44,709 bases of DNA, taken from an uncultured Opitutia bacterium. GTDB taxonomy: Bacteria > Verrucomicrobiota > Verrucomicrobiia > Opitutales > Opitutaceae. A program made the position numbers and the translations under genes. The notes beneath the pieces are model-generated. The model did not search any database, had not been told where the DNA came from, and was given only the letters and a program-made list of their open reading frames with translations. Of the stretch, positions 5,468-30,397 are shown piece by piece (the stretch's first letter is position 1; each line of letters starts with the position of its first letter). The stretch lies in the NCBI GenBank assembly GCA_903830425.1, contig CAIKTR010000193.1, forward strand, positions 1 to 44,709, given 5' to 3'.

Positions 5468-6355
5468 ATGAAACTCCGCCCGCTCACTGGAACCATCACG
5501 GCGCTCGTCACGCCTTTCAGCCAACAAGCCGTCGCCTACCGCGACCTCGCGAAACTGGTCGAGCACCAGATCAAGGGCGGCGTCAACGGCCTCGTCCCCG
5601 TCGGCACCACCGGCGAGTCCCCCACGCTCAGCCACGAGGAGCACATGGACGTCATTCGCGCCGTGGTCACCGCCGCCCGCGGCCGCGTGCCGGTGATCGC
5701 CGGGACCGGCTCCAACTCGACCCACGAGGCCGTCGAGCTGACCGAGCACGCCCACGCCGCCGGCGCCGACGGCATGCTCGTGGTCACGCCCTACTACAAC
5801 AAGCCGAACCAGGAGGGCCTGTTCCGCCATTACTGCGCCGTGGCCGACGCCACCGACCGCCCGATCATTCTCTACTCCATCCCCGGTCGCTGCGGCATTG
5901 AGATCAGCGTGCCCGTCGTGGAGCGGCTCCGCGCCCGGTATCCCCACGTCCGCTGGATCAAGGAGGCGGGCGGCAACGTCGACCGGGTCGATCAGCTCAA
6001 GCAGGCCCTGGGCGCCGACATCACGGTGCTCAGCGGCGACGACTCCCTGACCCTGCCCTTCATGGCCGTCGGGGCGGAGGGCGTCATCAGCGTCGCCTCC
6101 AACCTCGCGATTCGGGAGGTCGGCCAGATGGTCCGCCTGGCCCTCGCCAACGATTTCACCCAGGCCGCCCGGCTGCACCGCCGGCTCTATCCCCTGTTCA
6201 AGGCGCTGTTCCTTGATCCCAATCCCGTGCCGATCAAGGTCGCCCTGGCCCGCGCCGGACTCATCACGTCCGCCGCGGTGCGCCCGCCGCTGTGCGACCT
6301 GACTCCGGCTCACCTGCCCCCGCTGGTCAAGGCCCTCGCCGCCCTGCGCAAATAA
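5468..6355 (+). CDS. dapA: 4-hydroxy-tetrahydrodipicolinate synthase
   Basis: First committed step of lysine and diaminopimelate synthesis: condenses pyruvate with aspartate semialdehyde. 295 residues from the ATG at 5468, matching the family length. Visible residues are GTTGES (about 46-51), YY at 109-110, Tyr136 in YSIPGR and the Schiff-base Lys165 in IKEAGG. An in-frame ATG at 5435 would add 11 residues; it lies 6 bases after an AT-rich TTATCTATT element, so a leaderless longer form is possible. AAGGAA at about 5449-5454 precedes the chosen start at a rather long distance. It is followed 4 bases later by dapB, giving a dapA-dapB-ruvA unit. No lysine riboswitch fits in the 67-base upstream gap. 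Confidence 0.96.
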   Translation: MKLRPLTGTITALVTPFSQQAVAYRDLAKLVEHQIKGGVNGLVPVGTTGESPTLSHEEHMDVIRAVVTAARGRVPVIAGTGSNSTHEAVELTEHAHAAGADGMLVVTPYYNKPNQEGLFRHYCAVADATDRPIILYSIPGRCGIEISVPVVERLRARYPHVRWIKEAGGNVDRVDQLKQALGADITVLSGDDSLTLPFMAVGAEGVISVASNLAIREVGQMVRLALANDFTQAARLHRRLYPLFKALFLDPNPVPIKVALARAGLITSAAVRPPLCDLTPAHLPPLVKALAALRK

Positions 6356-6359
6356 TCCC

Positions 6360-7091
6360 ATGCCCCCCCGCATCCTCATTCATGGCGCCAAGGGCCGCAT
6401 GGGCCAGACGCTCGTCACCGCCGCCCAGGAACTGGGCCTGGTGGTCGGCGCGGCGGTCGACGCCGGCGACGACCTCGCCGCCGGCCTCGCGCAGGCGGAC
6501 GTGGCCGTCGATTTCAGCTCGCCCCACGCCACCCGGGCGCTGCTCGAGCTCGCGATCGCCCAGCGCAAGCCCGTTGTCATCGGCACCACCGGACACCCCG
6601 CCGCCGTCAAGGCCGAGTTGCGCGCGCTGGCGGCCCGGGTGCCGTGTGTCTGGGCCGGAAATTTCTCGGTCGGCGTGAACCTGCTGTTCGCTCTCACCCG
6701 CCGCGCGGCCGCCGTCCTCGGCTCCGACTATGACGCCGAGGTGGTGGAGATGCACCATCGCTTCAAGCAGGACGCCCCCAGCGGCACCGCCGCTCGCCTG
6801 CTCGAGATCATCCTCGAGGAGCGCAAACTCACCGCCCAGGCGCTGCGCCACGGCCGCCACGGCCTCACCGGCGAGCGCTCCCCCTCCGAGGTGGGCGTCC
6901 ACGCCCTCCGGGGCGGCGATGTCGTCGGCGACCATACCGTCCTCTTCGCCGCGCTCGGCGAGCGCCTGGAGCTGACGCACAAGGCCAGCGACCGGGGGAT
7001 TTTCGCCCGCGGCGCGCTGCGGGCCGCGCAATGGGTCCTCACCCAGCCGGCCGGGGTCTACGACATGCAGGATGTCCTTGGCCTGAAGTAA
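6360..7091 (+). CDS. dapB: 4-hydroxy-tetrahydrodipicolinate reductase
   Basis: NAD(P)H-dependent reduction of the DapA product, the next step towards meso-diaminopimelate for lysine and peptidoglycan. 243 residues. The Rossmann glycine-rich motif is HGAKGRMGQ near the N-terminus. GTTGHP is a nucleotide-contact loop, and the substrate motif EMHHRFKQDAPSGTA carries the catalytic His pair and Lys. The C-terminus (YDMQDVLGL) is typical. It starts 4 bases after the dapA stop without a Shine-Dalgarno sequence, suggesting translational coupling. ruvA follows after 8 bases. Confidence 0.96.
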   Translation: MPPRILIHGAKGRMGQTLVTAAQELGLVVGAAVDAGDDLAAGLAQADVAVDFSSPHATRALLELAIAQRKPVVIGTTGHPAAVKAELRALAARVPCVWAGNFSVGVNLLFALTRRAAAVLGSDYDAEVVEMHHRFKQDAPSGTAARLLEIILEERKLTAQALRHGRHGLTGERSPSEVGVHALRGGDVVGDHTVLFAALGERLELTHKASDRGIFARGALRAAQWVLTQPAGVYDMQDVLGLK

Positions 7092-7722: not shown

Positions 7723-8376
7723 CTACTTCTGAAAGCGCAGCGCGGCCATCTCGACCTTGCCCTGAAACGGGCGGACGGCCCGGCTGGCCCGGTTTTCGGC
7801 GGGACGCGGGTCGCGACCGTCGAAGCGGAGATCCTCGAGCGAGACGTTCTCCATCGAGGAAAGACGGACGTCGTTCATCCAGTCGCCCCAGCCCGCCGGA
7901 TAGCCGGCGGTGGCGTCGGCGAGGTCCGCGTTCTGATCGCCGAGCTTGAGTGAGCGCGGGCCCAGCACGGGATGGAGGACCGGGCGCGCCGGGGTGACGG
8001 CGGCCACGGCGGCGAGTGACGGCGCGGCAGCGGGACCCTGGGCGACCGTGTCCGCCACGGGGGTGACGGGGTGCGGGCGCATGATGAAGGCCACGGCGAT
8101 GGCGGCGGCGACGGCGCCCAGCGAGGCGGCATATGCGGCGAAGCGGAACGGCGCCGGGCGCGGCGCGAGCCGGGGACGCGCGGCCGGCGCGGGGGCGGCG
8201 GTGCGGAAGGTTTCGCCGAGCTGGGCGCAGGCCTGCTGCATCTGGCAATACTGCCGGTAAACGCGGCGCCGCTCCGGGCTGCTGCGGACCTCTTCCTCCA
8301 GCAGCGCGGCGTCCGCCGGGCTGATTTGGTGGTCAACGTACAGGTTCAGCAGTTCGATGAACTTGGTTTCTTTCAT
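7723..8376 (-). CDS. Probable membrane-bound anti-sigma factor
   Basis: 217 residues. The N-terminal part (about 1-55) is helical, resembling the sigma-binding domain of zf-HC2/RseA-type anti-sigma factors (ELLNLYVDHQISPADAALLEEEV, shortened here). It lacks the usual zinc motif H-x3-C-x2-C; only Cys44 and Cys50 are seen. A Pro/Ala linker leads to a single membrane segment at about residues 78-98. The remaining ~120 residues would be outside the membrane and are not recognisable. The gene follows the ECF sigma factor gene with a 43-base gap, which is the main reason for the assignment. Expected role: hold the sigma factor inactive at the membrane until an envelope signal arrives. Confidence 0.72.
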   Translation of the reverse strand: MKETKFIELLNLYVDHQISPADAALLEEEVRSSPERRRVYRQYCQMQQACAQLGETFRTAAPAPAARPRLAPRPAPFRFAAYAASLGAVAAAIAVAFIMRPHPVTPVADTVAQGPAAAPSLAAVAAVTPARPVLHPVLGPRSLKLGDQNADLADATAGYPAGWGDWMNDVRLSSMENVSLEDLRFDGRDPRPAENRASRAVRPFQGKVEMAALRFQK

Positions 8377-8419
8377 GGTGGTGTCGGGTCGGTGGTTCGC
8401 AGGGTCAAGCTGCGGGTAG

Positions 8420-9025
8420 TCAGGTCTTGAAATCTTCGCCGAGTTTGGACCGCAGGCTCTCGCGGGCCCGGGCGATGCGGCTCTTCACGGTGCCCACGGA
8501 GATGCCGAGGATGTCCGCGATCTCCTCGTAGGAGAGGTTCTTGATGTTGCGCAGGGTCAGGATCTCCCGGTGCTTCGCACTGAGCTTTTCCATGCCCTGC
8601 GCAATCCGGTCGATGAACTCCTGCGTCACCGTGATGTCGTCCGGGGTCTCCACCTCGGCCGGGATCAGATCCGCCAGAGTGGTCGAATTGTCCGCACTGA
8701 CCGGGGCATCGAAGGAGACCGACTTGTCCCGCTTGCGCCGCCACCAGTACCAGTAGCGGTTGCGGGCGAGGTTGGTGGCAATCTGGTAGAGCCAGGTGGA
8801 GAAAGCGGAGTCGCCGCGGAAGTTCACCAGCCCGCGATGGGCCCGGATGAAGGCGTCCTGGGTGACCTCCTCGGCGTCCTGCGAGTTTCGCAGGAGCTGG
8901 TTGACCATCGCATAGATGCGGTCCCAGTAGCGCGAGACCATCTCGTCAAAGGCGGACTGGTCGCCGTTTTTGAACCGGTCCACGAGCACCTGGTCGAAGG
9001 CTACTTCCTGAGCTTTAGTTGACAT
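8420..9025 (-). CDS. ECF (sigma-E type) RNA polymerase sigma factor
   Basis: 201 residues from the ATG at 9025. Region 2 is clear: AFDEMVSRYWDRIY, then DAEEVTQDAFIRAHRGL and FSTWLYQIATNLARNRYW. After a short linker, region 4 has the helix-turn-helix EILTLRNIKNLSYEEIADIL followed by GTVKSRIARAR. The size and lack of regions 1 and 3 mark it as an extracytoplasmic-function sigma factor that redirects RNA polymerase to stress or envelope genes. A TTG at 9070 could extend it by 15 residues, but those would cover the predicted promoter. The next gene downstream is the probable anti-sigma factor. The promoter in front matches sigma-E targets, so it probably transcribes its own gene. Confidence 0.93.
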   Translation of the reverse strand: MSTKAQEVAFDQVLVDRFKNGDQSAFDEMVSRYWDRIYAMVNQLLRNSQDAEEVTQDAFIRAHRGLVNFRGDSAFSTWLYQIATNLARNRYWYWWRRKRDKSVSFDAPVSADNSTTLADLIPAEVETPDDITVTQEFIDRIAQGMEKLSAKHREILTLRNIKNLSYEEIADILGISVGTVKSRIARARESLRSKLGEDFKT

Positions 9026-9039
9026 GCGTTCAACTTCGC

Positions 9040-9067
9040 TCTGACGGGTATATTGCTGGATAGTTCC
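9040..9067 (-). promoter_or_regulatory. Sigma-E-type promoter in front of the ECF sigma gene
   Basis: On the minus strand, GGAACTA (9061-9067) is separated by exactly 16 bases from TCAGA (9040-9044). The E. coli sigma-E consensus is close to GGAACTT, 16 bases, TCnnA, so both boxes and the spacing fit. Transcription would start around 9033-9036, leaving only 8-11 bases before the ATG at 9025. This points to autoregulation by the gene's own product. Confidence 0.65.
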
Positions 9068-9070
9068 CAA

Positions 9071-9305
9071 ATTAGTAAAAGGATGAGGGCTGGCTTAAGC
9101 GGGTGGCCCGGTGCGGTCAATGCCCGCCGGCAACCCGGCCCGTCCACCGGCCCTGGCGGTCGCTGGCAAACGACCGGCCGGCTGGTTCACCCGACGCGGC
9201 GCGGCTTTTGGTGGCTATATTCGCGATTACCAAGCTAGATTTTTCACGCCGCCAGCAATCCACCCCAGCGCGTGACCGCCGTACCCGTATACCCAAGGCC
9301 AGCTG
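9071..9305. other. Intergenic stretch between the sigma factor and methyltransferase genes
   Basis: About 235 bases upstream of two divergent genes. It holds a GC-rich part (9100-9200) and an AT-richer part with TATATT at 9216-9221 that could be a -10 box for the methyltransferase gene; no convincing -35 box lies at the right distance. I see no ORF with coding character and no RNA gene. Confidence 0.4.
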
Positions 9306-10082
9306 ATGAAAACACCGCCCAAAATTGAGGCGAAGATCGAGGACGAGTTCGCCGCGTCTGCCCGGGCCTGGTCCCCGGAAGCCGTTTATTATTGGGACAG
9401 CCACCTTCCGCGCTACCGTTATTTCGCCGGCCTGCTGGGCGACTTGGGGGCGCGGCAAGCCTTTGACCGGGTGCTGGATATAGGCATGGGGTTTCAAACA
9501 CTTTTGCTGAGGAAGTTGCTGCCCGAGAGCCAAATCGACTGCCTGGGCGTCTACCACGACCCCCGGTTCAGCCCCGAGGGAAAGTCTGCCTTCCTCCCCG
9601 GGGACTTGAACAAACTCGCGCACGAATCCGGCCCGGGTAATTTGGCGGGCGGCTACGATCTGATCGTGTTCATGGAGGTGCTGGAGCATCTCTACACTCC
9701 CCCGGATCTCGTCCTCAGGTACCTCTCCTCGCTCCTGAGCGCAGGCGGCGTGATCGTGGTGACGACGCCGAACGCGGCCTGGTTGAAGAACCGATTGAAG
9801 ATGCTGCGCGGCAGGAATCCCTTCGAGACCCTCCGGGCCAATCCGAGTGACATGGGGCATATCCGGGAATACACGGCGGCGGAGTTGGAGGCGGCCTTTG
9901 CCGGCACCGGCCTGCGCAAGGTGCGCGCCGAACGACGGGGATTGTATCGCTTCAACAATCCCAAGGACAAATTTTACAGCTGGATCGCTGATATCACCCA
10001 CCCATCCCTGCGCCGCACCCTGGTCGCGGTGTACCGCAAGGAGGGTCTAGTGCCCGGGCAAACCGGTCCGGTCCGACCCTGA
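9306..10082 (+). CDS. Class I SAM-dependent methyltransferase
   Basis: 258 residues. SAM-binding motif I is VLDIGMGFQ (about residues 56-64), with Met where most relatives have Cys. Further on are YDLIVFMEVLEHL (motif II, with the typical EVLEH) and GGVIVVTTPN (motif III). This pattern is typical of the Methyltransf_11/23 type acting on small molecules, lipids or glycans; the substrate is unknown. AAGG lies 8 bases before the ATG. Base composition is visibly less GC-rich than in flanking genes, and the gene is followed by an AT-richer gap and a tRNA gene, which is compatible with acquisition by transfer. No functional partner is adjacent. Confidence 0.8.
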   Translation: MKTPPKIEAKIEDEFAASARAWSPEAVYYWDSHLPRYRYFAGLLGDLGARQAFDRVLDIGMGFQTLLLRKLLPESQIDCLGVYHDPRFSPEGKSAFLPGDLNKLAHESGPGNLAGGYDLIVFMEVLEHLYTPPDLVLRYLSSLLSAGGVIVVTTPNAAWLKNRLKMLRGRNPFETLRANPSDMGHIREYTAAELEAAFAGTGLRKVRAERRGLYRFNNPKDKFYSWIADITHPSLRRTLVAVYRKEGLVPGQTGPVRP

Positions 10083-10376
10083 CGACCGGTCGTCTGCCCC
10101 TCTGGACCCGCCACAACCGCCCGGGACGAGACTGTTTTTTCCACTCAAATGCGTTGGTGCGTAACGAGTGCCAGATTTGCTTGCCTGATAGCGTCCAGCG
10201 ACCGTAATCTGGGCCACTGGCAGAGTTTTAAGCAGGTGTTGAATTAGAGTTTCTGCCATGTATTGGTGCTCATGTTTCGTTAGGATTCAGCAGTAAAGGC
10301 AAGCTAGGCAAGAGGTAGTAATACCAGCAGAAAGCATACAGTAATAAATACGCAAGTAGCAGTTAACCAACACAAA
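10083..10376. other. AT-richer gap between the methyltransferase gene and tRNA-Lys
   Basis: 294 bases, clearly lower in GC than the rest of the window from about 10130 on. No ORF here looks coding. The tRNA promoter should lie near the right end. TTGAAT (10239 region) and several TA-rich tracts are present, but I cannot pick a reliable -35/-10 pair. I found no integrase remnant and no repeat of the tRNA 3' end. Confidence 0.45.
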
Positions 10377-10451
10377 GGGCTGGTAGCTCAATGGTAGAGC
10401 AGTTGCCTTTTAAGCAATTGGTTCTGGGTTCGAATCCCAGCCGGCCCACCA
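10377..10451 (+). tRNA. tRNA-Lys (anticodon TTT)
   Basis: A complete cloverleaf can be folded. The acceptor stem is GGGCTGG (10377-10383) with CCGGCCC (10441-10447), one T-G pair. The D stem is GCTC/GAGC. The anticodon stem GTTGC/GCAAT has loop CTTTTAA with anticodon TTT at 10409-10411. The T arm is CTGGG-TTCGAAT-CCCAG. The discriminator base is A10448 and the CCA end is encoded (10449-10451). It reads AAA and AAG lysine codons. A response regulator gene starts 50 bases downstream with no terminator between. Confidence 0.96.
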
Positions 10452-10501
10452 CTTTCATCAATGACCAAACCCCACCTCGCGCCATCCTCGCGTGCGCCCT
10501 C

Positions 10502-11149
10502 ATGAAGCGTCTTATCATAGTCGAAGACCAAACCGCAGTCCGCGAGATGCTGGTCGAGATCCTGCGGTTGGATCCCAACTATCAACTGGTGGGCGAGTGT
10601 GGCGACGGACAGAGTGCCGTGGCGCTCTGCCTCGAGGCGAAGCCGGACCTGCTGGTTCTGGATGCCAAGCTGCCGGGCCTGAACGGGGTCGATATCCTCC
10701 GCCGGATCACCAAGAAGCTACCGGAGATGCGCGTCCTGATTTTCTCGGGCCATGAGAACCCGATGCTGGTCCGCGAGATGCTGGAGGCGGGCGCCCATGG
10801 ATTTGTCGAGAAGACCGCCGGCCTGATCGAGCTGAAAAAGGGCCTGGAAGCCATCGCGAACGGCGGCACCTACTTCGGTCCAGCCGTGGCCGCCCTGCTC
10901 CGCGACGTGGTGGCCAATCCCGAGGCGAGCAGCGCCGCCGACTTCCTGACCGACCGGGAGCGCGAGATTCTGCAGCTGGTCGCCGAGAGCCACAGCACGC
11001 GGGGAATCGCGACCAAGTTGGATATCAGCATCAAGACGGTGGACAACCACCGGACCAACCTGATGCGCAAATTGAACCTCCACGACGTCGCCAGCCTCAC
11101 CCGCTATGCCATGGAGGTCGGGTTGATCGCGCAGAAGAAAGCGCAGTAA
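10502..11149 (+). CDS. NarL/FixJ-family response regulator (receiver plus LuxR-type HTH)
   Basis: 215 residues from the ATG at 10502 (MKRLIIVED). The receiver domain has the acidic pair Glu8/Asp9, phosphoacceptor Asp54 in LVLDAKLPG, the Ser of IFSG and the Lys of VEKTAG. The C-terminal LuxR-type DNA-binding domain begins [14 protein letters not shown] and has the recognition region [16 protein letters not shown]. It should bind DNA as a dimer after phosphorylation. No histidine kinase is in the window, so it is an orphan here. The reading frame extends back through the tRNA, but that part is not coding. With no terminator after tRNA-Lys, read-through from the tRNA promoter may express it. The Pal gene follows after 61 bases. 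Confidence 0.93.
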
Positions 11150-11210
11150 AGCCTTGCCGCAGCAACAAGGTTGCCCATTAGATTTTAGCACGACCCACCT
11201 CGACCACTCC

Positions 11211-11768
11211 ATGAATATCGCCTCGAAGAAACTTTGCCTCGTCATCGCCAGCGCCGTTTTCATCCTTGCGGGCTGCAAAAAGAAGCCGGCCCGCCCCGAT
11301 CCGAGCGCCACCGTCCTCGGGCCCAACGGCGGCGGCAACATCTCCCCGGAACAGGTGAATCCCGCCCTCGACCCGAACGCGGCCGGGCTGACGCAGCGCG
11401 ACCCGAACGTCATCGAGACCGATGACATGATCAAGGGCCTGCTTGGCGCCGTTTACTTCGACTTCGACAAGTCCAACGTCAAGGAGAGCGAGCGCGCCAA
11501 GGTTCAGGCCGCCAAGGACTACCTGGCGAAGAACCCCAAGCACCGCATCCTCTTCGAGGGGCACTGCGACTGGCGGGGCACGGATGAGTACAACCTGAGC
11601 CTGGGTGACCGTCGCGCCACCGCGGCGAAGAATTACCTCCTGTCGCTCGGCCTCGCCGCCGACAAGGTCGAGGCCAACTCCAAGGGCAGCCTGGAGTCCT
11701 CCAAGAATGCGGATGACGCCACCATGGCGAAGGACCGCCGGGCGGAGATCATTGTGCTGAAGAAGTAA
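11211..11768 (+). CDS. pal: Peptidoglycan-associated OmpA-family lipoprotein (Pal-like)
   Basis: 185 residues from the ATG at 11211. A lipoprotein signal peptide ends in the lipobox ILAGC, so the mature protein is lipid-anchored, probably in the outer membrane. A low-complexity linker (about 50 residues) leads to the OmpA-like domain, which starts at VYFDFDKSNVKESE and contains the peptidoglycan-binding signature ILFEGHCDWRGTDEYN, then LGDRRATAAKNYL. It should tie the outer membrane to peptidoglycan. The usual tolB/tolA/ybgF neighbours are absent, so the Pal name is by domain layout and not by context. A strong terminator follows at 11787. Confidence 0.88.
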   Translation: MNIASKKLCLVIASAVFILAGCKKKPARPDPSATVLGPNGGGNISPEQVNPALDPNAAGLTQRDPNVIETDDMIKGLLGAVYFDFDKSNVKESERAKVQAAKDYLAKNPKHRILFEGHCDWRGTDEYNLSLGDRRATAAKNYLLSLGLAADKVEANSKGSLESSKNADDATMAKDRRAEIIVLKK

Positions 11769-21880: not shown

Positions 21881-23866
21881 ATGAACGTCATGAAGTCCCC
21901 CCGTGCCTCCAATCTCCTGACCCGTCGGGCGCTCGCCCTTGGGTTGGGATGCCTCCTGCTGACCACCACCAGTCGCGCTGTCCAGTTCACCAACGGTGAC
22001 CTGAGCGGCAGTTTCGATACCACGCTGTCCTTCGGCGCCATGTACCGGCTGGGCGACCCGAGTGCGGACTTCTACGGCACCACCAACAGCTTCAACGGGG
22101 TGGCCGGACGCCAGAACTCGGTCAACAGCGACGAGGGCAACCTCAACTACGGCAAGGGCTGGGTCTCGGAAATTTTCAAGGCCTCGTCGGATTTTGAGCT
22201 CAAGTACCACGACTACGGCCTGTTCGCCCGCGGGTACGTCTTCGGCGACCTGAAGTCGGACCACACCCGCCGCGCCCCGCTCAGCCAGCAGGCGCGCGAC
22301 CGCGTGGTGCGCGGCAGCGAGATCCTGGACCTCTACGTCGTCGGCAAGTTCGAGCTGGGCCAGGATCTCCCGCTCGACCTCCGCTTCGGCCGCCAGGTGC
22401 TGAGCCTCGGCGAGAGCACCTTCATCCCCAACGGCATCAACGTCGTCAACCCGGTGGACCTCTCCAAGCTCCGGGTCCCCGGCGCCGAACTGAAGGAGGC
22501 CTTCCTCCCGGTCAACATGCTCAAGGCCTCCCTCGGCCTGACCAAGAACATCACCTTCGAGCCGTACTGGCTCCTCGAGTTCCGCCGCAACGAGCTGGAA
22601 CCGGCCGGCACCTATTTCTCGACCAACGACTTTGCCAGCCGCGGCGGCGAGAAGGTCTACCTCGGCTTCGGCACCCTGTCCGACAGCGGCACCCTGGGGG
22701 CGATTCCGCGCGCCAAGGACCGCGACGGCAGCAACCTCAACCAGTACGGCGCCTCGCTGCGCGTCATGGTCCCGAGCCTGAATGACACCGAGTTCGGCTT
22801 CTATTACGCCAACTACCACAGCCGCTCGCCCCTGATCAGCGCCCGCACCCCGACCGACCCGATCAGCTCGGCCCTCGTCGTCGCCACCGCCACCAGCCTC
22901 GCCACCACCAACCTGGTGCCGGTCATGCTCTCCTACGGCTATCCGCCGGCCGGGATCTCGTCCGCCCTCACCACCCTGATCGGCGCCGCGCTCACCGGCG
23001 TGCCGATCAGCGCCCTGCCCCCCAGCCTGCAGCCCTTCTACCCGGCCACCCAGACCATCGCCGCCGGCGCCGGCAAGATCGGCCTGCTCACTGCCGCCGC
23101 CACCGGGCGCTATTTCACCGAATATCCCGAGAACATCTCGATGGTGGGCGCCAGCTTCAACACCTCCCTCGGCAACAGCGGCATCTCCTGGCAGGGTGAG
23201 TTCTCCGTCAAGAACGGCGTGCCGCTCCAGGTCGACGACGTCGAACTGCTCTTCGGCACCCTCTCCTCGCTCAACCCGGCCTTCGGCGCCAACAACCAGG
23301 TCGGGAACTATCTCGGCCAGCTGAACAAGGAGATCCCCGGCTTCCGTCGTCACCGCGTCGTGACCACGCAGTCCACCGTGACGAAGGTCTTCGGCCCCAC
23401 CTTCGGCGCCCAGCAGCTGAGCGTCGTCGCCGAGGCCGGCGGCGTCTGGGCCAACCTGCCCGACCAGAGCGTGCTGCGCTACGACGGCCCGGGCTCGTTC
23501 TCCAGCGGCAGCGCGACCACCATGGTCAACACCGGCTTTGCCGCCATCCCGGCCACCAACGAAGCCGCCTTCGCGGACTCCTTCTCCTGGGGCTACCAGA
23601 TCCTCGCCAAGCTCGACTACACCAACGTGTTTGCCGGCGTGAACGTCTCGCCGTCGATCGCCTTCGCCCACGATGTCCGCGGCACCACCCCGCTGCCCCT
23701 CGGCAACTTCATCGAGGGTCGCCGGAGCATCAACCTCGCGGCGGAGTTCACCTACCAGAACGCCTGGGCCCTCGAGATCCGCTACGTGAACTACTCCGGC
23801 GGCGGCCTCTACAACCTCATCGCCGATCGCGACTACGTGGCGACCACCCTGAAATACTCGTTCTAA
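21881..23866 (+). CDS. DUF1302-family outer-membrane protein
   Basis: 661 residues. A basic start and hydrophobic stretch (ALALGLGCLLLTT) form a signal peptide ending near Ala33. The mature part has many alternating polar/hydrophobic strands and ends in Phe (TTLKYSF), typical of an outer-membrane beta-barrel. Family-typical stretches are the early SGSFDTTLSFGAMYRL, then ARGYVFGD, LRFGRQVLSLGES and NVVNPVDLSKLRVPGAEL. Family members occur beside DUF1329 and MMPL transporter genes; the function is not established, though channel or docking roles for hydrophobic compounds are proposed. Here it heads that same set, 23 bases before the DUF1329 gene. It is divergent from uvrA, with 209 bases between them. 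Confidence 0.87.
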   Translation: MNVMKSPRASNLLTRRALALGLGCLLLTTTSRAVQFTNGDLSGSFDTTLSFGAMYRLGDPSADFYGTTNSFNGVAGRQNSVNSDEGNLNYGKGWVSEIFKASSDFELKYHDYGLFARGYVFGDLKSDHTRRAPLSQQARDRVVRGSEILDLYVVGKFELGQDLPLDLRFGRQVLSLGESTFIPNGINVVNPVDLSKLRVPGAELKEAFLPVNMLKASLGLTKNITFEPYWLLEFRRNELEPAGTYFSTNDFASRGGEKVYLGFGTLSDSGTLGAIPRAKDRDGSNLNQYGASLRVMVPSLNDTEFGFYYANYHSRSPLISARTPTDPISSALVVATATSLATTNLVPVMLSYGYPPAGISSALTTLIGAALTGVPISALPPSLQPFYPATQTIAAGAGKIGLLTAAATGRYFTEYPENISMVGASFNTSLGNSGISWQGEFSVKNGVPLQVDDVELLFGTLSSLNPAFGANNQVGNYLGQLNKEIPGFRRHRVVTTQSTVTKVFGPTFGAQQLSVVAEAGGVWANLPDQSVLRYDGPGSFSSGSATTMVNTGFAAIPATNEAAFADSFSWGYQILAKLDYTNVFAGVNVSPSIAFAHDVRGTTPLPLGNFIEGRRSINLAAEFTYQNAWALEIRYVNYSGGGLYNLIADRDYVATTLKYSF

Positions 23867-23889
23867 CCCACCCCCTGATACCCCTCGCC

Positions 23890-25236
23890 ATGAAGAAGCT
23901 CGTCCTTGCCACCGCGTTCGCCCTTGCCGCCGCCGGGCTGCAGGCCGCCATCAGTGAAACCCAGGCGGCCCGCCTCGGCGCCGACCTCACCCCGCTCGGA
24001 GCCGAGAAGGCCGGCAACGCCGACGGCTCCATCCCGGCCTGGGACGGCGGCATCACCACGCCCCCGGCCGGCTACAAGGTCGGTGATCACCATCCCGACC
24101 CGTATGCCGCCGACCGTCCGCTCTACGTGGTCACCGCGTCCAATCTGGCGCAGTACCAGGACAAGCTCACCGCCGGCCAGGTGGCCGTGCTCAAGGCCTA
24201 CCCGGACTACAAGCTGGTCGTTTATCCCACCCACCGCAGCGCCTCCAACCCGCAGCGCATCTACGACGCGACCCGGACGAACGCCACCACCGCCCGTCTG
24301 ACCGAGGGCGGCAACGGCATCACCGGCTCCGTCATCGGTACGCCCTTCCCGATCCCCGCCAGCGGGCTCGAGGTCGTCTGGAACCACCTCACCCGCTACC
24401 GCGGACTCTCGGCCTCGCGCCCCATCGGGCAGGCCGCCCCGCAGCGCAACGGCAGCTACACGATGGTCAGCTTCGAGGATGAGTTTCTCTTCAACTACTG
24501 CCGCGAGGGCATCACCGAGGCCGCCCTCGACAACACCCTCGTCTACTTCAAGCAGTCCGTCGTCGCCCCCGCCCGGCTCGCCGGCACCATCCTCCTCGCC
24601 CATGAGACCATGGACCAGATCAAGGAACCGCGCCGCGCCTGGGTCTACAACGCCGGCCGCCGCCGCGTGACCCGCGCCCCGAACGTCTCCTACGACAATC
24701 CGGGCACCGCCGCCGACGGCCAGCGCACCAGCGACCAGTTCGACATCTTCAACGGCGCCCCCGACCGCTACAATTGGAACCTGGTCGGCAAAAAGGAGAT
24801 GATCGTCCCCTACAACTCGTACCGCCTGCACAGCGGCCAGGTGAAGTATGCCGACATCCTCAAGCCCCTCCATATCAACCAGGAGCTCGCGCGCTACGAA
24901 CTGCACCGCGTCTGGGTCGTCGATGGCACCCTCAAGCCCGGCACGTCGCACCTCTACTCCCGCCGCACCTTCTACGTGGACGAGGACAGCTGGCAGATCC
25001 TCGCCGCCGACCAGTACGACGGCCGCGGCGCGATCTGGCGCGTGTCCGAGGCGCATTGCATCAACTACTACGATGCCCTGGCCTTCTGGAGCACGCTCGA
25101 GGTCCACACCGACCTGCAGAGCGGCCGCTACCTGGCGATCGGGCTCGATAACGAGGGTCCGACCTACAACTTCGGCCTGAAGCGCACCCCGGCCGACTAC
25201 AGCCCTGATTCCCTCCGCCGCGAAGGCATCCGGTAA
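23890..25236 (+). CDS. DUF1329-family exported protein
   Basis: 448 residues with a clear signal peptide (MKKLVLATAFALAAAGLQA). It begins its mature part with the family-typical ETQAARLGADLTPLGAEKAGN and IPAWDGGI. Other typical stretches are YDATRTNA, MVSFEDEFLFNY, EPRRAWVYNAGRRRVTRAPN and RTFYVDEDSWQIL. DUF1329 proteins are predicted to have a LolA/LolB-like half-barrel that could carry a lipid through the periplasm; this comes from family knowledge, not from the sequence itself. It has no lipobox, so it is probably soluble in the periplasm. It lies between the DUF1302 protein and, past two hairpins, the YCF48 and MMPL genes. Confidence 0.87.
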   Translation: MKKLVLATAFALAAAGLQAAISETQAARLGADLTPLGAEKAGNADGSIPAWDGGITTPPAGYKVGDHHPDPYAADRPLYVVTASNLAQYQDKLTAGQVAVLKAYPDYKLVVYPTHRSASNPQRIYDATRTNATTARLTEGGNGITGSVIGTPFPIPASGLEVVWNHLTRYRGLSASRPIGQAAPQRNGSYTMVSFEDEFLFNYCREGITEAALDNTLVYFKQSVVAPARLAGTILLAHETMDQIKEPRRAWVYNAGRRRVTRAPNVSYDNPGTAADGQRTSDQFDIFNGAPDRYNWNLVGKKEMIVPYNSYRLHSGQVKYADILKPLHINQELARYELHRVWVVDGTLKPGTSHLYSRRTFYVDEDSWQILAADQYDGRGAIWRVSEAHCINYYDALAFWSTLEVHTDLQSGRYLAIGLDNEGPTYNFGLKRTPADYSPDSLRREGIR

Positions 25237-25262
25237 TGGCACCGTGCCTCGTCGCACACCCA

Positions 25263-25280
25263 CAGGCGCGACCGCGCCTG
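25263..25280 (+). repeat. Short hairpin in the DUF1329-YCF48 gap
   Basis: CAGGCGC (25263-25269), loop GACC, GCGCCTG (25274-25280): a perfect 7-base-pair stem without a T run. It stands 20 bases before the terminator hairpin and begins with nearly the same bases, so the two may be duplicates. It may protect the 3' end of the upstream mRNA. Confidence 0.5.
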
Positions 25281-25300
25281 AAATCAGGTAGTTAACAAGC

Positions 25301-25325
25301 AGGCGGGCCTTGGCCCGCCTTCTTT
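25301..25325 (+). terminator. Terminator-like hairpin between DUF1329 and YCF48 genes
   Basis: AGGCGGGC (25301-25308), loop of about 4 bases, GCCCGCCT (25313-25320), then TCTTT. The stem is strong and the T run short. It lies 10 bases before the ATG of the YCF48 gene (25331), so it can either end the DUF1302-DUF1329 transcript or act as a partial stop within a longer operon. Confidence 0.7.
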
Positions 25326-25330
25326 ATGCC

Positions 25331-26254
25331 ATGAACCTTCCCCCCCTCCGCCCGCACTGGCTGGTCCTGCTGGCCCTGCTGGCTGCGCCGGCGGGTCGGG
25401 CGACGGAGGTGCGACCCACCATGCTGCTGCTCGACGGCGCCCGCACCGGGCCTGCCGTGGTCGTCGTCGGCGAGCGCGGCACGATCCTCCGCTCGACCGA
25501 CGAGGGCCGCACCTGGGCCGCCACCGGCGGGACGTTTTCCCCCGCCTTCACCGGGGTGGCCTTCGCCGGGGACACCGCGCACGGCTGGGCCGTGGGACAC
25601 GACGCCCTGATCGTGGCCACGACCGACGGCGGACTCACGTGGCGGAAACAGTGGCAGGCGGAAAACCTCTCCGACTCCTTCCTTGATGTGCTCGCCCTGG
25701 ACGCCCAGCGGGTCATCGCGGTCGGGGCCTACGGCCTGTTTGTCACCACCGCGGATGGCGGCCGGACCTGGCAGCGGCGCAAGCTCAGCGAGGATGACTT
25801 TCACTTCAACCGGATCACCCGCGGCCCGACCGGCACGCTCTATCTGGCCGGAGAACGCGGCACCCTGCTGCGCTCCCGGGATCAGGGGCTGAGTTGGAGC
25901 CGGATCGATTCGCCCTACGACGGATCATTCTACGGCATCCTGCCGCTCGAGGAGCGCACGCTCCTCGCCTACGGCCTGCGCGGCCGGATCTACCGCTCGA
26001 CCGACGACGGCGACACCTGGACGGCGGTGCCCAACGAGCGCCGCGTGCTCCTGGCCGCCGCGGTGCGGGCCGCCAACGGCACCCTGGTCCTGGCCGGGCA
26101 GTCGCGGGCGCTGTTCGCCAGCCGCGATGCCGGCGGCTCCGTCGCCGACTGGGCGGTCCCCTTCACCACGGCCGTGGCCGAGTTGCTGGCGCTCCCCGAT
26201 GGTTCCCTGCTGGCGCTGGGCGAGGCCGGCGCCACCCGCCTGCCCGCCCCCTGA
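25331..26254 (+). CDS. YCF48/BNR-repeat periplasmic beta-propeller protein
   Basis: 307 residues from the ATG at 25331. A signal peptide (WLVLLALLAAPAG then RATEV) sends it out of the cytoplasm. It carries about six Asp-box/BNR repeats: ILRSTDEGRTW, IVATTDGGLTW, FVTTADGGRTW, LLRSRDQGLSW, IYRSTDDGDTW and a degenerate LFASRDAGG. This predicts a beta-propeller. The family name comes from the photosystem II assembly factor YCF48, but no photosynthesis genes are here. In this setting it is more likely an accessory part of the adjacent MMPL transporter, whose gene starts 5 bases later. An in-frame upstream ATG (25310) lies inside the terminator and is not a likely start. Confidence 0.82.
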   Translation: MNLPPLRPHWLVLLALLAAPAGRATEVRPTMLLLDGARTGPAVVVVGERGTILRSTDEGRTWAATGGTFSPAFTGVAFAGDTAHGWAVGHDALIVATTDGGLTWRKQWQAENLSDSFLDVLALDAQRVIAVGAYGLFVTTADGGRTWQRRKLSEDDFHFNRITRGPTGTLYLAGERGTLLRSRDQGLSWSRIDSPYDGSFYGILPLEERTLLAYGLRGRIYRSTDDGDTWTAVPNERRVLLAAAVRAANGTLVLAGQSRALFASRDAGGSVADWAVPFTTAVAELLALPDGSLLALGEAGATRLPAP

Positions 26255-26259
26255 CCGCC

Positions 26260-28599
26260 ATGCTCGCGAAATTCTCCACCTGGATGTTTCGGCACCGCTT
26301 CCCGCTGGTGGTCATAATCATCGTGGTCACCGCCATCATGGCGGTCTTCGCCAGCCGCATCCGGGTCGATGCCAGCTTCAACAAGTCGCTGCCGCTCGAC
26401 CACCCCTACATCCGCACCTTCACCAAGTACCAGAGCGAGTTCGGCGGCGCCAACCGCGTCCTGATCGCCCTCATGGTCAAGCAGGGCGACATTTTCACGC
26501 CGGAATACTTCGCCCAGCTGCGCAAGGTCACCGATGAGACCATCTTCCTGCCCGCGGTCGACCGGCCCCAGGTCCAGTCCCTGTTCACGCCGAACGTCCG
26601 CTACATCGAGGTCATCGAGGACGGGTTCGCCGGCGGCAATGTCATCCCGGCGGACTTCACGCCCACGCCGGCCAATTTCGCCAAGGTGCGGGAAAACATC
26701 ATCAAGTCCGGCAAGCTGGGCCAGCTGGTCGCGACCAACTTCACCGGCGCCATCGTCAGCGCCCAATTGCTCGAGGACGACCCCCGCACCGGCCACAAGA
26801 TCGACTACCTGAAGGTGGCCGACGGCCTCGAGGCCATCCGCCGCCGGGTCGAGCGGGAAAGCGGCGGCGCGATCACCGTCCACATCATCGGTTTCGCCAA
26901 GGTGATCGGGGACATCGGCGACGGCGCCCGGGGGGTCTTCCTGCTCTTCGGCATTTCGATCGTGATCACCGCGCTGCTGGTCTGGAACTACGCCGGCCGG
27001 TGGAAACTGGCGGCCGCCCCGATCATCTGCTCGCTCGTCGCGGTCGTGTGGCAGCTCGGCGGTCTCACCCTCCTCGGCTACGGCATCGACCCCTTCTCCA
27101 TCCTCGTCCCCTTCCTCGTCTTTGCCATCGGCGTCAGCCACGGCGTGCAGAAAATCAGCATGTTCCGGAACGAGATGTTCAAGGGCCACGACGGCCCGAC
27201 CGCCGCCCGGCAGGCCTTCATGCAGCTCATCATCCCCGGCGTGGTGGCCCTGATGACCGACACCGTCGGCTTTATCACCATGCTCGTGATCAAGATCCCG
27301 ACCATCCAGGAGCTCGCCATCATCGCCAGCCTCGGGGTCAGCGTGATCGTCATCACCAACTTCTTCCTCCTGCCCATCCTGCTCTCCTACCTCCACCTGC
27401 CCGCCACCTACGGCCAGTGGGTCGCGGCGCGACGCGCCGGGACCGACCGCTTCTGGGTCCGCCTGGCCAACGGCATGAAGCCGCGGCCCTCGATGATCAT
27501 CATCGTCTGCTGCTTCGCCCTGGGCGCCTGGGGCTACTGGAAGGCCGAGCAGGTGCACATCGGCGACACCCAGGCCGGCGTGCCGGAACTGTGGCCCAAA
27601 TCGCGCTACAACCAGGACACCCGCGTCATCACCTCCCAGTTCAGCATCGGCGTCGACATCCTCTCGGTCGTGGTGGAAACCGTGCCGAACGGCTGCGTCG
27701 ACCACGAGGTCGTGACCCTGCTGGACCAGTTCGAGGGACGCATTCGCGCCGTGCCCGGGGTCCAGTCGGTCATCTCGCTGCCCGCCATGGCCAAGCTGGT
27801 GAACGCGGGCTACAGCGAGGGCTCGCTGAAGTGGCGCATCCTGCCCCGCAACCAGCAGACCCTCGCGCAGGCCGTCTCCCCGATCGAGACCTCCACCGGG
27901 CTGCTCAACGCCGACGGCAGCGTGATGCCCATCATGATCTTCCTCGCCGACCACAAGGCCGAGACCCTCCGCGCGGTCACCGACGCCGTCAAGGCCTTCG
28001 CCGCCGCCCATCCGTCGCCCAAGGCCACGTTCCTGCTCGCCAGCGGCAACGCCGGGGTGATGGCCGCCACCAACGAGGTGGTCCAGTCCGCCCAGACCCC
28101 CATCGTGCTCTGGGTGTTCGGGGCCGTCATCGCCCTTTGTCTGATCACCTTCCGCTCGGTCCGCGCCACCCTCTGCATCGTGGTGCCCCTCGCCATCGTC
28201 AGCTGGCTGGCCTACGCCCTCATGGTCTACCTCGGCATCGGCCTCAAGACCTCGACCCTGCCCGTCGTCGCCCTCGGCGTCGGCATCGGCGTCGACTACG
28301 GCATCTACCTGTTCGCCAGCCTGCAGACGGCCCTGAAGAACGGTGCCTACTTTGAGGACGCGATGTTCCAGGCCTTCAAGGACACCGGCGCGGCGATCGT
28401 CTTCACCGGCCTCACGCTCGGGATCGGCGTGAGCACCTGGATCTTCTCCGCGCTGAAGTTTCAGGCCGACATGGGCCTGCTGCTCACCTTCATGTTCCTC
28501 GTCAACATGCTCGGCGCCATCGTGCTGATGCCCGCCATGGCCCGCTGGCTCTGGCGGCACCACCACGGCCCCACCGCCTCCCCCTTCCCCAAGTCGTAA
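26260..28599 (+). CDS. MMPL/RND-superfamily transporter
   Basis: 779 residues from the ATG at 26260, 5 bases after the YCF48 stop. The architecture is two repeats, each with one membrane helix, a large periplasmic loop and a bundle of five helices, giving about 12 helices. The helix-4 signatures are FAIGVSHGVQK in the first half and LGVGIGVDYGIYL in the second; the first lacks the Asp normally used for proton coupling while the second keeps it. The periplasmic loops contain RVDASFNKSLPLDHPY and VQSVISLPAMAKL. Family members export lipids, sterol-like or other hydrophobic molecules using the proton gradient. With DUF1302, DUF1329 and YCF48 it would form a trans-envelope route; substrate and direction are unknown. 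Confidence 0.9.
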   Translation: MLAKFSTWMFRHRFPLVVIIIVVTAIMAVFASRIRVDASFNKSLPLDHPYIRTFTKYQSEFGGANRVLIALMVKQGDIFTPEYFAQLRKVTDETIFLPAVDRPQVQSLFTPNVRYIEVIEDGFAGGNVIPADFTPTPANFAKVRENIIKSGKLGQLVATNFTGAIVSAQLLEDDPRTGHKIDYLKVADGLEAIRRRVERESGGAITVHIIGFAKVIGDIGDGARGVFLLFGISIVITALLVWNYAGRWKLAAAPIICSLVAVVWQLGGLTLLGYGIDPFSILVPFLVFAIGVSHGVQKISMFRNEMFKGHDGPTAARQAFMQLIIPGVVALMTDTVGFITMLVIKIPTIQELAIIASLGVSVIVITNFFLLPILLSYLHLPATYGQWVAARRAGTDRFWVRLANGMKPRPSMIIIVCCFALGAWGYWKAEQVHIGDTQAGVPELWPKSRYNQDTRVITSQFSIGVDILSVVVETVPNGCVDHEVVTLLDQFEGRIRAVPGVQSVISLPAMAKLVNAGYSEGSLKWRILPRNQQTLAQAVSPIETSTGLLNADGSVMPIMIFLADHKAETLRAVTDAVKAFAAAHPSPKATFLLASGNAGVMAATNEVVQSAQTPIVLWVFGAVIALCLITFRSVRATLCIVVPLAIVSWLAYALMVYLGIGLKTSTLPVVALGVGIGVDYGIYLFASLQTALKNGAYFEDAMFQAFKDTGAAIVFTGLTLGIGVSTWIFSALKFQADMGLLLTFMFLVNMLGAIVLMPAMARWLWRHHHGPTASPFPKS

Positions 28600-28625
28600 G
28601 GGCGCCGGAGCCGACGCACCGCGCC

Positions 28626-29609
28626 GTGGCCTGGGACGTACATTACCGCAAGGGGGTCTGGCTGCCCCAGATCGGCTGGTGGCTCGATGCCCAGGCCCGC
28701 ACCCCGCGCTCGTTTGTCTCCCATGCCCACGCCGACCACATGGCCCGGCACCCGGAGGTGCTCTGCACCGCCGCCACCGCCCGGCTGATGCAGGCCCGCC
28801 TGCCCGGCCGCCGGGCCGAGACCGTCCTGCCGTTCGGCCGCGCCCACGCGCTGGATTTCACCACCACCGCCACGCTGCACCCGGCGGGGCACATGCTCGG
28901 TTCCAGCCAGATCCAACTCGACCACGCCGAGCATGGCAGCCTCCTCTACACCGGCGACTTCAAGCTTCGTCCCAGTCACGCGGCCGAGCCCTGCGCCACC
29001 CCCCGCGCCGACGTCCTGGTCATGGAAACCACCTTCGGCCTGCCCCGCTACGTTTTCCCGCCCGAGGCCGAGACCATCGCCCGGATCATCACCTTCTGCC
29101 AGGAAACCCTCGCCGCCGGCGCCACCCCCGTCCTGCTGTGCTACAGCCTCGGCAAGAGCCAGGAGGTCCTGCGCGCCCTCGCCCCGGCGCAACTGCCCGT
29201 GATGCTCCACGCGGAAACGCTCCGCCTGACCCAGGTTTGCCAGCGGCTCGGCATGACGTTTCCGGCCTTCCGCGAATTCGATGCCCAGGCGCTCGCCGGC
29301 CACGTCGTCCTCTGCCCGCCGTTTGCCAACGGACTCCTCAACCGGATCCCGTCCCGCCGCACCGCCGCGCTCACCGGCTGGGCCCTCGATCCCGGCGCCC
29401 TCTACCGCCTGCGGTGCGACGCCGCGTTCCCGCTCTCGGACCACGCCGGCTTCGACGACCTCCTCACGTTCGTGGAGCGCGTCCAGCCCCGGCGGATTCT
29501 CACGCTCCACGGCTTTGCCCGGGAATTCGCCCAGACGCTCCGGACCCGCGGCTGGGACGCAATTGCCATTGGCCAAGGCAACCAACTTGAGTTCAAGCTG
29601 TCGGGGTGA
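28626..29609 (+). CDS. Metallo-beta-lactamase-fold exonuclease-like protein
   Basis: 327 residues from a GTG start at 28626. The metal-binding motifs are SHAHADH (residues 32-38), HPAGHMLGS (His85, His89), YTGDFK (Asp111), then METTFG and SDHAGFDDLL. The overall layout resembles small beta-CASP-like nucleases of COG1236, including the ligase-associated DNA exonuclease group. The usual neighbours of that group (ATP-dependent ligase, Lhr helicase) are absent. It starts 26 bases after the MMPL transporter and its stop overlaps the start of the DUF3108 gene, so it sits in the envelope gene run, where a nuclease is unexpected. Whether it acts on RNA or DNA cannot be told. Confidence 0.8.
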   Translation: MAWDVHYRKGVWLPQIGWWLDAQARTPRSFVSHAHADHMARHPEVLCTAATARLMQARLPGRRAETVLPFGRAHALDFTTTATLHPAGHMLGSSQIQLDHAEHGSLLYTGDFKLRPSHAAEPCATPRADVLVMETTFGLPRYVFPPEAETIARIITFCQETLAAGATPVLLCYSLGKSQEVLRALAPAQLPVMLHAETLRLTQVCQRLGMTFPAFREFDAQALAGHVVLCPPFANGLLNRIPSRRTAALTGWALDPGALYRLRCDAAFPLSDHAGFDDLLTFVERVQPRRILTLHGFAREFAQTLRTRGWDAIAIGQGNQLEFKLSG

Positions 29610-30397
29610 TGTTCCTCCTTATGCGCCGCGCCCTCCTCCTGCTGCTGCTCCTGACCGGTCCCGCGCGAGCCGACCTGCAACTCGCGCTGCGGCCCGGGGA
29701 GGAGCTGACCTATCGGGTCAGCTGGGGCGTGCTGAGCAATGCGGGCGAGATCCGGATCGCCGCCCGCACCGAGACCAACGACCGGCAGCCGTGCACGCTG
29801 GTCGTGACCACCACCTCCACCCGCGGCTTCCTGCGGGGACTGTTCCAGTTCGACGCGCGGGCCGAGTCCGTCTTCAGCGACCGCACCGGCCGGATGCTGG
29901 TGCACACCGAGCGCAGCGCCGCGGGCAAGAAGCCGACCGACACCATGCTGACGTTCGACTACGGCCAGAGCCGCGCGGACTTCCGCGACCTGATCCAGCC
30001 GGCCAAGAACCAGGTGGTCGCCCTGCCGCCGGGCGACCCGCTGGACCTCATCACCTGCCTCGTCCAGACCCGCTCCTGGAACCTGCAGCCCGGCGAGCAG
30101 CGCGACGTCCTCGTCATGTTTGAGGAGGAGCCCTATGTGCTGACCGTCCACGCCCTGCGGTACGAGACCCTCCGCACGTCGCTGGGCACGTTCAACACCC
30201 TCGTGCTCGAGCCCCGCATGGAAAAAACCGCGCCCAAGGGCATGTTTAAGCGCGGCTCCAACGTGCGGGTCTGGATCTCGCAGGATGCCCGCCGCCTGCC
30301 CGTGCGCTTCGAGGTCGAGTTCAGGTTCGGCGCCGGCGTCTCGACCCTTGTCCAGTACACCGCCCCGGCGGTCGCGGATGCACGTCCTAGTTCTTAG
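29609..30397 (+). CDS. DUF3108-family exported protein
   Basis: 262 residues from the ATG at 29609, which overlaps the stop of the preceding gene (TGATG), implying translational coupling. A second ATG at 29621 is an equally good start for the signal peptide (RRALLLLLLLTGPARA). The mature part begins LRPGEELTYRVSWGVLSNAGEI, the typical opening of DUF3108 proteins, and consists of beta strands. The family is periplasmic with unknown function. Its 3' end overlaps the glycosyltransferase gene by 20 bases, so the two are expressed together, suggesting a job in envelope glycolipid handling. Confidence 0.8.
   Translation: MFLLMRRALLLLLLLTGPARADLQLALRPGEELTYRVSWGVLSNAGEIRIAARTETNDRQPCTLVVTTTSTRGFLRGLFQFDARAESVFSDRTGRMLVHTERSAAGKKPTDTMLTFDYGQSRADFRDLIQPAKNQVVALPPGDPLDLITCLVQTRSWNLQPGEQRDVLVMFEEEPYVLTVHALRYETLRTSLGTFNTLVLEPRMEKTAPKGMFKRGSNVRVWISQDARRLPVRFEVEFRFGAGVSTLVQYTAPAVADARPSS

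Follow-up and report, generated by a model that had tools for sequence, protein, structure and literature searches.

An AmeABCD-type transport cassette on the chromosome of Opitutaceae and its apparent layout in two modules

What does a set of four transport genes, known from hydrocarbon-degrading proteobacteria, do among the housekeeping genes of a bacterium of the Verrucomicrobiota? The genes lie in the window (the whole stretch of 44,709 nucleotides that was analysed, from an Opitutaceae (Verrucomicrobiota) genome bin) and follow each other as DUF1302, DUF1329, YCF48/BNR and MMPL/RND, here called A, B, C and D, all on the plus strand at positions 21881-28599 (Table 1). A sequence-only reading of the window had named these consecutive families in this order, which the Pfam matches confirmed, and had presented them as a candidate trans-envelope transport system. 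By family content and by the order A-B-C-D, the four genes are an AmeABCD-type cassette, and the chromosomal Opitutaceae cassette is a Verrucomicrobiota case of a transport cassette already described in hydrocarbon-degrading proteobacteria. Hydrophobic N-termini resembling export signals are present on A, B and C. The start of D is likely the ATG at 26260, 5 bases past the YCF48 stop, the mechanically called open reading frame with its TTG at 25894 being too long.

Table 1. Features of the cassette, in window coordinates.
Feature	Position	Strand	Evidence
A: DUF1302, predicted outer-membrane beta-barrel, AmeA-like, 661 aa	21881..23866	+	PF06980 504 bits, E 9e-151
B: DUF1329, predicted periplasmic LolA-fold carrier, AmeB-like, 448 aa	23890..25236	+	PF07044 517 bits, E 4e-155; PF17131 LolA_like
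Terminator-like hairpin, B-C gap	25301..25320	+	strict hairpin + T-run search
C: YCF48/BNR beta-propeller, export signal, AmeC-like, 307 aa	25331..26254	+	PF14870 83.5 bits
D: MMPL/RND predicted inner-membrane pump, HAE3-affiliated, AmeD-like, 779 aa	26260..28599	+	PF03176 97 bits
D, TM4 Ser-His, residues 293-294	27136..27141	+	conserved motif
D, TM10 Asp, residue 679, GVDY	28294..28296	+	conserved motif

Described relatives of the cassette

The closest precedent is AmeABCD of Castellaniella defragrans 65Phen, which comprises a DUF1302 protein, a LolA-like DUF1329 protein, a COG4447/YCF48-like protein and an HAE3-affiliated RND protein; its deletion lowered monoterpene tolerance and increased the net influx of dye, and its authors already called cassettes of this type conserved (PMC6394551). 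The four families and their order are identical in the window. However, AmeABCD is induced by a monoterpene and belongs to a monoterpene catabolic island, whereas the window's cassette sits among housekeeping genes by uvrA, in a genome without detectable acyl-CoA dehydrogenase or FadL. In P. putida, PP_0765/PP_0766 and PP_2018/PP_2019 are required for growth on Tween 20, and co-folding of these homologues, which gave a strong C-D contact and weak B-D and B-A contacts, led to the proposal that the four proteins constitute a novel transport system (PMC10866462). The same four roles are represented there, and AB and CD act as two modules; judging from the locus numbers, the two pairs occupy two places in P. 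putida, whereas in the window they are contiguous, with a terminator-like hairpin between them. The window's B is nearest to copies that are AB-only or split into modules, for example those of P. aeruginosa CP109682 and Indioceanicola. Finally, the 'Nanopod' cluster of the Desulfobacterota ORM2a, proposed to move benzene, also unites a porin-like protein, DUF1329, YCF48 and MMPL (PMC13101534), and DUF1302/DUF1329 proteins are known from the nanopods of Delftia (PMC3110197). The ORM2a cluster differs from that of the window in its tie to aromatic hydrocarbons and in the genes for a universal stress protein and a hypothetical protein that separate DUF1329 from YCF48. With a deletion phenotype for AmeABCD and co-folded homologues in P. 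putida, the system is not a new candidate, and the central inference of the sequence-only reading is already in print.

Co-occurrence and inheritance in Opitutaceae

Each gene was searched independently in 100 genomes of the family, and strong matches were counted. A was found in 51 genomes, B in 52 and D in 54, the D of one of them (G262) being a broken remnant. At least one of A, B and D occurred in 54 of the 100 genomes and all three in 51 of these 54; the three genes were collinear within 10 kb in 50 of the 51, and the remaining genome had them split over two contigs. These figures rule out a chance neighbourhood and bear out the earlier view of a conserved functional set. Among 80 named loci, which were chosen by B and are thus biased as a test of co-occurrence, all 73 Opitutaceae loci with the four genes had A-B-C-D on one strand. 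The set is found in proteobacterial loci as well as in Opitutaceae, and hence outside the Proteobacteria.

In named genomes, the nearest DUF1329 loci (80 of them) are all labelled Opitutaceae, Opitutae, Opitutia, Verrucomicrobia(iia) or genera of Opitutaceae, and a class sample of 286 genomes had strong DUF1329 matches in 18 Opitutaceae genomes, in one genome from a different family within the order, and in no others. A phylum sample agreed, DUF1329 matches elsewhere being weak (E 1e-4 to 1e-6); those in other verrucomicrobial orders were set aside as LolA-like background. In the lone carrier outside the family, from the same order, a dynamin-like GTPase gene (PF00350) adjoins the cassette and a large sensor kinase gene lies beyond A (L127, G119:C85, 13846-16185).

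Where a locus extends far enough upstream, a divergent uvrA nearly always adjoins A (tblastn positions place it there in about 80 of 83 testable loci and a strict coordinate rule in 71, the difference being due to overlapping start calls); the loci in which it was not found are L088, L110 and L116. The Opitutaceae and the single order-mate form one clade in the maximum-likelihood trees of both B and D. In the midpoint-rooted tree of B, for which the proteobacterial sample consisted of plasmids only, this clade falls inside the sampled proteobacterial diversity, and the nearest sequences, from Indioceanicola and several P. aeruginosa plasmids, are not cleanly resolved from it; these data suggest no more than a single, old transfer into Opitutales. 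Within Opitutaceae, the cassette has been inherited vertically as a stable chromosomal locus, with losses. The single clade, the fixed site at uvrA and the lack of catabolic or mobile genes nearby rule out a recent mobile island in this family, to which the earlier notion that the set travels does not apply.

One loss has left a relic. G262, a genome of the same genus listed as 100% complete, has lost A, B, C and the first half of D, and what persists between uvrA and an AI-2E transporter gene is a 3' piece of D with a frameshift, covering residues 439-768 (L138, G262:C9:1-16000, 5506-6494). In G239, also of the same genus, D is in two frames with a break near residue 193 (L139, G239:C32, 4945-7256) and A has one in-frame TAG stop, and both decay and assembly error are possible for the two genes. 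Of note, the P. aeruginosa plasmid NZ_CP017294.1 carries the cassette at two places (L128 and L134); the YCF48 and MMPL accessions are identical in the two copies, and both are followed by the same acyl-CoA dehydrogenase and CoA-transferase genes.

Protein folds, pump motifs and the B-C boundary

Since PDB sequence searches with A and with B returned no matches, predicted folds were used for both proteins. A models as a porin-like outer-membrane barrel, in keeping with the barrel that had been predicted for DUF1302: its AF2 model (mean pLDDT 82.2) shows many long strands arranged in a barrel, with a helical insert at ~330-406, and its Foldseek matches are outer-membrane porins, e.g., of Occ and OmpF types, at the level of the fold only (TMq about 0.3-0.4). 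The C-terminal residue of A is Phe in 104/104 homologues. B (mean pLDDT 86.5) models as a LolA-type carrier fold; its best PDB matches in Foldseek were P. gingivalis LolA3 9tp6 (TMt 0.80-0.83), the DUF1329 protein 4z48 and 3bk5, followed by LolA proteins including 2w7q. Membership of B in the LolA superfamily is indicated by the half-barrel carrier fold and by a PF17131 score of 31.2, just above the cut-off of 30. Although B and LolA have the carrier fold in common, B is roughly double LolA in size and has an RND pump as its partner, where Lol sorting uses the LolCDE ABC transporter. The proposal that DUF1329 is a lipid shuttle thus gains a modelled carrier fold, the shuttle mode itself being our inference. 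Given the LolA fold of B and the porin-like barrel of A, a shuttle is likelier than a sealed tunnel.

C scored 87 bits against the NCBIfam Ycf48 ortholog model, far under the cut-off of 326, and was therefore rejected as an ortholog of the photosystem II assembly factor Ycf48, with which it shares a fold family. D has hydrophobic segments in the RND pattern, plus two large soluble loops, and its best NCBIfam match is TIGR00921 HAE3, which agrees with the earlier reading of its product as an MMPL/RND pump. Judged by its score of 166 bits, below the curated cut-off of 351.9, D is HAE3-affiliated only and stays outside strict TIGR00921 membership; its score against the NCBIfam HpnN model is lower still (73.7 bits, cut-off 751.9). 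None of A, B, C and D has a Pfam match to an OMF, MFP, TolC-like or adaptor domain, and HAE1 tripartite efflux of the AcrAB-TolC type was rejected on this ground and on the porin-like and LolA-like nature of A and B.

D is akin to the HAE3-type RND lipid pump HpnN (PDB 5khn, 6wu0), and sequence similarity between them is detectable in the first TM half. In HMMER alignments, TM4 of HpnN reads GVDF and the repeat in its second half reads GVAF, so that HpnN has an Asp in TM4 and none at the matching second-half site, whereas D has Ser-His in TM4 and its Asp in TM10. Across 41 aligned D proteins from Opitutaceae and Proteobacteria, Ser-His occupies TM4 and GVDY or GIDY occupies TM10, with the TM10 Asp in 41/41; a strict regular expression run over 98 D homologues found the TM4 motif in 95 and the TM10 motif in 97. 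The TM4 His and the TM10 Asp may be the proton carriers of D. D groups with the MMPL proteins that cassettes of this type encode on proteobacterial plasmids; its identity to them is mostly 38-53%, and the TM4/TM10 motifs are common to both. HpnN also differs in that it is reported to function without the other three proteins (PMC6394551).

The gap between B and C contains the hairpin AGGCGGGCCTTGGCCCGCCT-TCTTT at 25301, which the sequence-only reading had missed. A search under a strict rule (a GC-rich hairpin plus a T-run), with expectations from base shuffles, found terminator-like hairpins in 46/93 B-C gaps of Opitutaceae, as against 1/95 A-B gaps and 3/88 C-D gaps, where 3.2, 0.0 and 0.6, respectively, were expected. 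Median intergenic distances are 20 bases for A-B, 79 for B-C and 6.5 for C-D. A similar B-C hairpin occurs in three of nine proteobacterial loci tested (L125, L128 and L130), and a fourth match, in L133, is doubtful and close to the start of C. The pairs also come apart in proteobacteria: AB is found without CD in the stretches seen on the P. aeruginosa CP109682 and pUM505 plasmids and CD without AB on Azospirillum pAB510c; CD precedes AB in Aromatoleum, the order is B-A-C-D in Vibrio alfacsensis, and AB and CD are on opposite strands in Indioceanicola and in C. necator C39. Because of the B-C hairpin and of these separations, the cassette looks like two modules, AB and CD. P. putida agrees with such a layout, its AB and CD pairs having distant locus numbers and correlated phenotypes (PMC10866462). 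The earlier claim of one machine spanning both membranes is too strong, since neither A nor C is a TolC-like or membrane-fusion protein, a terminator-like hairpin parts AB from CD, and either pair occurs alone in other genomes; a shuttle between half-machines fits better.

Mechanism, direction and substrate

The reading that we favor, and hold to be rather probable, is that of an AmeABCD-type cassette that transports a hydrophobic compound and is built as two half-machines. A and B would form the outer half; B, with its LolA fold, would take the compound from C-D across the periplasm, and the porin-like barrel of A would let it leave (or enter). As B would move between the halves, no sealed tunnel would be needed, and the conserved terminator-like B-C hairpin would allow an excess of A and B over C and D. 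We infer the docking of the window's proteins, the shuttle mode, the direction and the substrate. In favor of the half-machines are the composition, order and deletion phenotype of AmeABCD (PMC6394551), the Tween 20 requirement and co-folding contacts in P. putida (PMC10866462), and, from our own results, the co-occurrence and collinearity, the predicted folds of A and B, the excess of hairpins in B-C gaps and the separate encoding of AB and CD. The protein counts of ORM2a (porin 106 and DUF1329 158 versus YCF48 65 and MMPL 60) also fit an excess of the outer half (PMC13101534). Against the model, the contacts were predicted for homologues, the window's proteins having been modelled as single chains; the strict rules detect the B-C hairpin in only half of the loci, and termination itself is only predicted; D scores under the HAE3 cut-off and the Foldseek matches of A are at fold level. 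Moreover, the lipid catabolism found in the vicinity of homologues is missing from the window's genome, so the cassette could have a different kind of substrate there. An outward direction (efflux or delivery to the outer membrane) is somewhat the likelier one, but the impaired growth on Tween 20 and monoterpenes could reflect uptake just as well as the efflux of toxic intermediates.

Uptake is what an importer would perform, A admitting fatty acids or other hydrophobes, B carrying them inward and C-D delivering them to the inner membrane, or through it, for catabolism; we consider this unlikely. It accords with the Tween 20 requirement in P. putida (PMC10866462) and with the proteobacterial cassettes, which adjoin genes of aromatic, aldehyde or acyl-CoA pathways (the named neighbors being fatty-acid CoA ligase, thiolase, acyl-CoA dehydrogenase, ring-cleavage and aldehyde dehydrogenase genes). 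Strong acyl-CoA dehydrogenase matches are commoner in family genomes with the cassette (24/52) than in those without it (8/48; Fisher p 0.002, uncorrected for kinship), but 28 of the 52 carriers are without such a match. FadL, PF00441 acyl-CoA dehydrogenase and squalene-hopene cyclase had no match in the window's genome, which is 95% complete; therefore the catabolic role of the proteobacterial cassettes does not simply carry over, FadL-linked fatty acid uptake is not supported, and hopanoid transport was set aside for this genome. The surroundings of the cassette also argue against an importer, as the window otherwise consists of housekeeping genes (lepA, fabD-like, dapA, dapB, tRNA-Lys, purH, dinB, uvrA, pheA, scpB, ilvD and pgi) and contains no catabolic island or mobile genes. 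Known RND/MMPL pumps are exporters, which we also counted against the importer.

These surroundings would suit a housekeeping exporter that delivers an endogenous membrane lipid or hydrocarbon, such as the long-chain olefins of the Ole pathway, to the Opitutaceae outer membrane, a reading to which we give a low probability. The window's genome has OleC-like and OleD-like genes side by side (L126, G000:C194:23000-35626, 8195-11508), the OleC-like one exceeding the NF006754 cut-off of 478 with 644 bits, and the pair suggests a putative synthesis of long-chain olefins or beta-lactones; in addition, OleA homologues have been reported from Opitutae (PMC7064751), and the sequence relatives of D, HpnN and MmpL, export lipids or siderophores. 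However, 3Beta_HSD, the OleD marker family, has matches in 100/100 family genomes, not all of which need be OleD, whereas the cassette is present in about half, so the two are unlinked; with a marker that is universal in the family and not specific for OleD, an Ole linkage was rejected for want of correlation. The deletion of the cassette in G262, from the same genus, also speaks against a housekeeping role. It is, at a stretch, conceivable that a cassette which served transport in catabolic islands became, in Opitutaceae, a chromosomal system that sends a hydrophobe of the cell's own making, possibly Ole olefins, to the outer membrane; its RND pump would be coupled to a carrier, and its proton relay would have been relocated (TM4 His, TM10 Asp). 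If true, this carrier-coupled RND design would be distinct from HAE1 tunnels and from stand-alone HpnN-type pumps.

For AmeABCD, the C. defragrans authors proposed tripartite-style efflux through a continuous conduit, in which B and C serve as the membrane-fusion proteins and A is the exit channel (PMC6394551). Such a conduit would explain why all four genes are co-inherited but is improbable, given a modelled A that is porin-like and not of TolC type, a LolA carrier for B, a BNR propeller for C, no MFP/OMF Pfam match in the four genes, and AB and CD that are often encoded apart.

DUF1302 and DUF1329 still bear names that denote an unknown function, even though the literature points towards the transport of hydrophobes. 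In the open-licence papers that were searched, we found no report of the cassette in Opitutaceae, no description of the modular AB/CD layout and no mention of the TM4/TM10 swap in D. Opitutaceae offer a large set of such cassettes, passed on vertically in a phylum distant from Pseudomonadota and marked by natural losses and one relic, which makes a clean comparative system for substrate and direction, and the two-module layout and the TM4/TM10 swap yield testable predictions on the amount of B relative to D and on the proton-carrying residues.

Downstream of the cassette, an AI-2E family transporter gene (PF01594) separates the MMPL gene from the exonuclease-like gene in many relatives (e.g., L024:14695-15861 and L109:4474-5619); PF01594 is missing from the window at 28599-28626 and has no match in the window's genome. 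Window positions 28626-30397 encode a ligase-associated-exonuclease-like protein (TIGR04122 198 bits, cut-off 325) and then a DUF3108 protein, a pair that is kept downstream of the cassette in many Opitutaceae.
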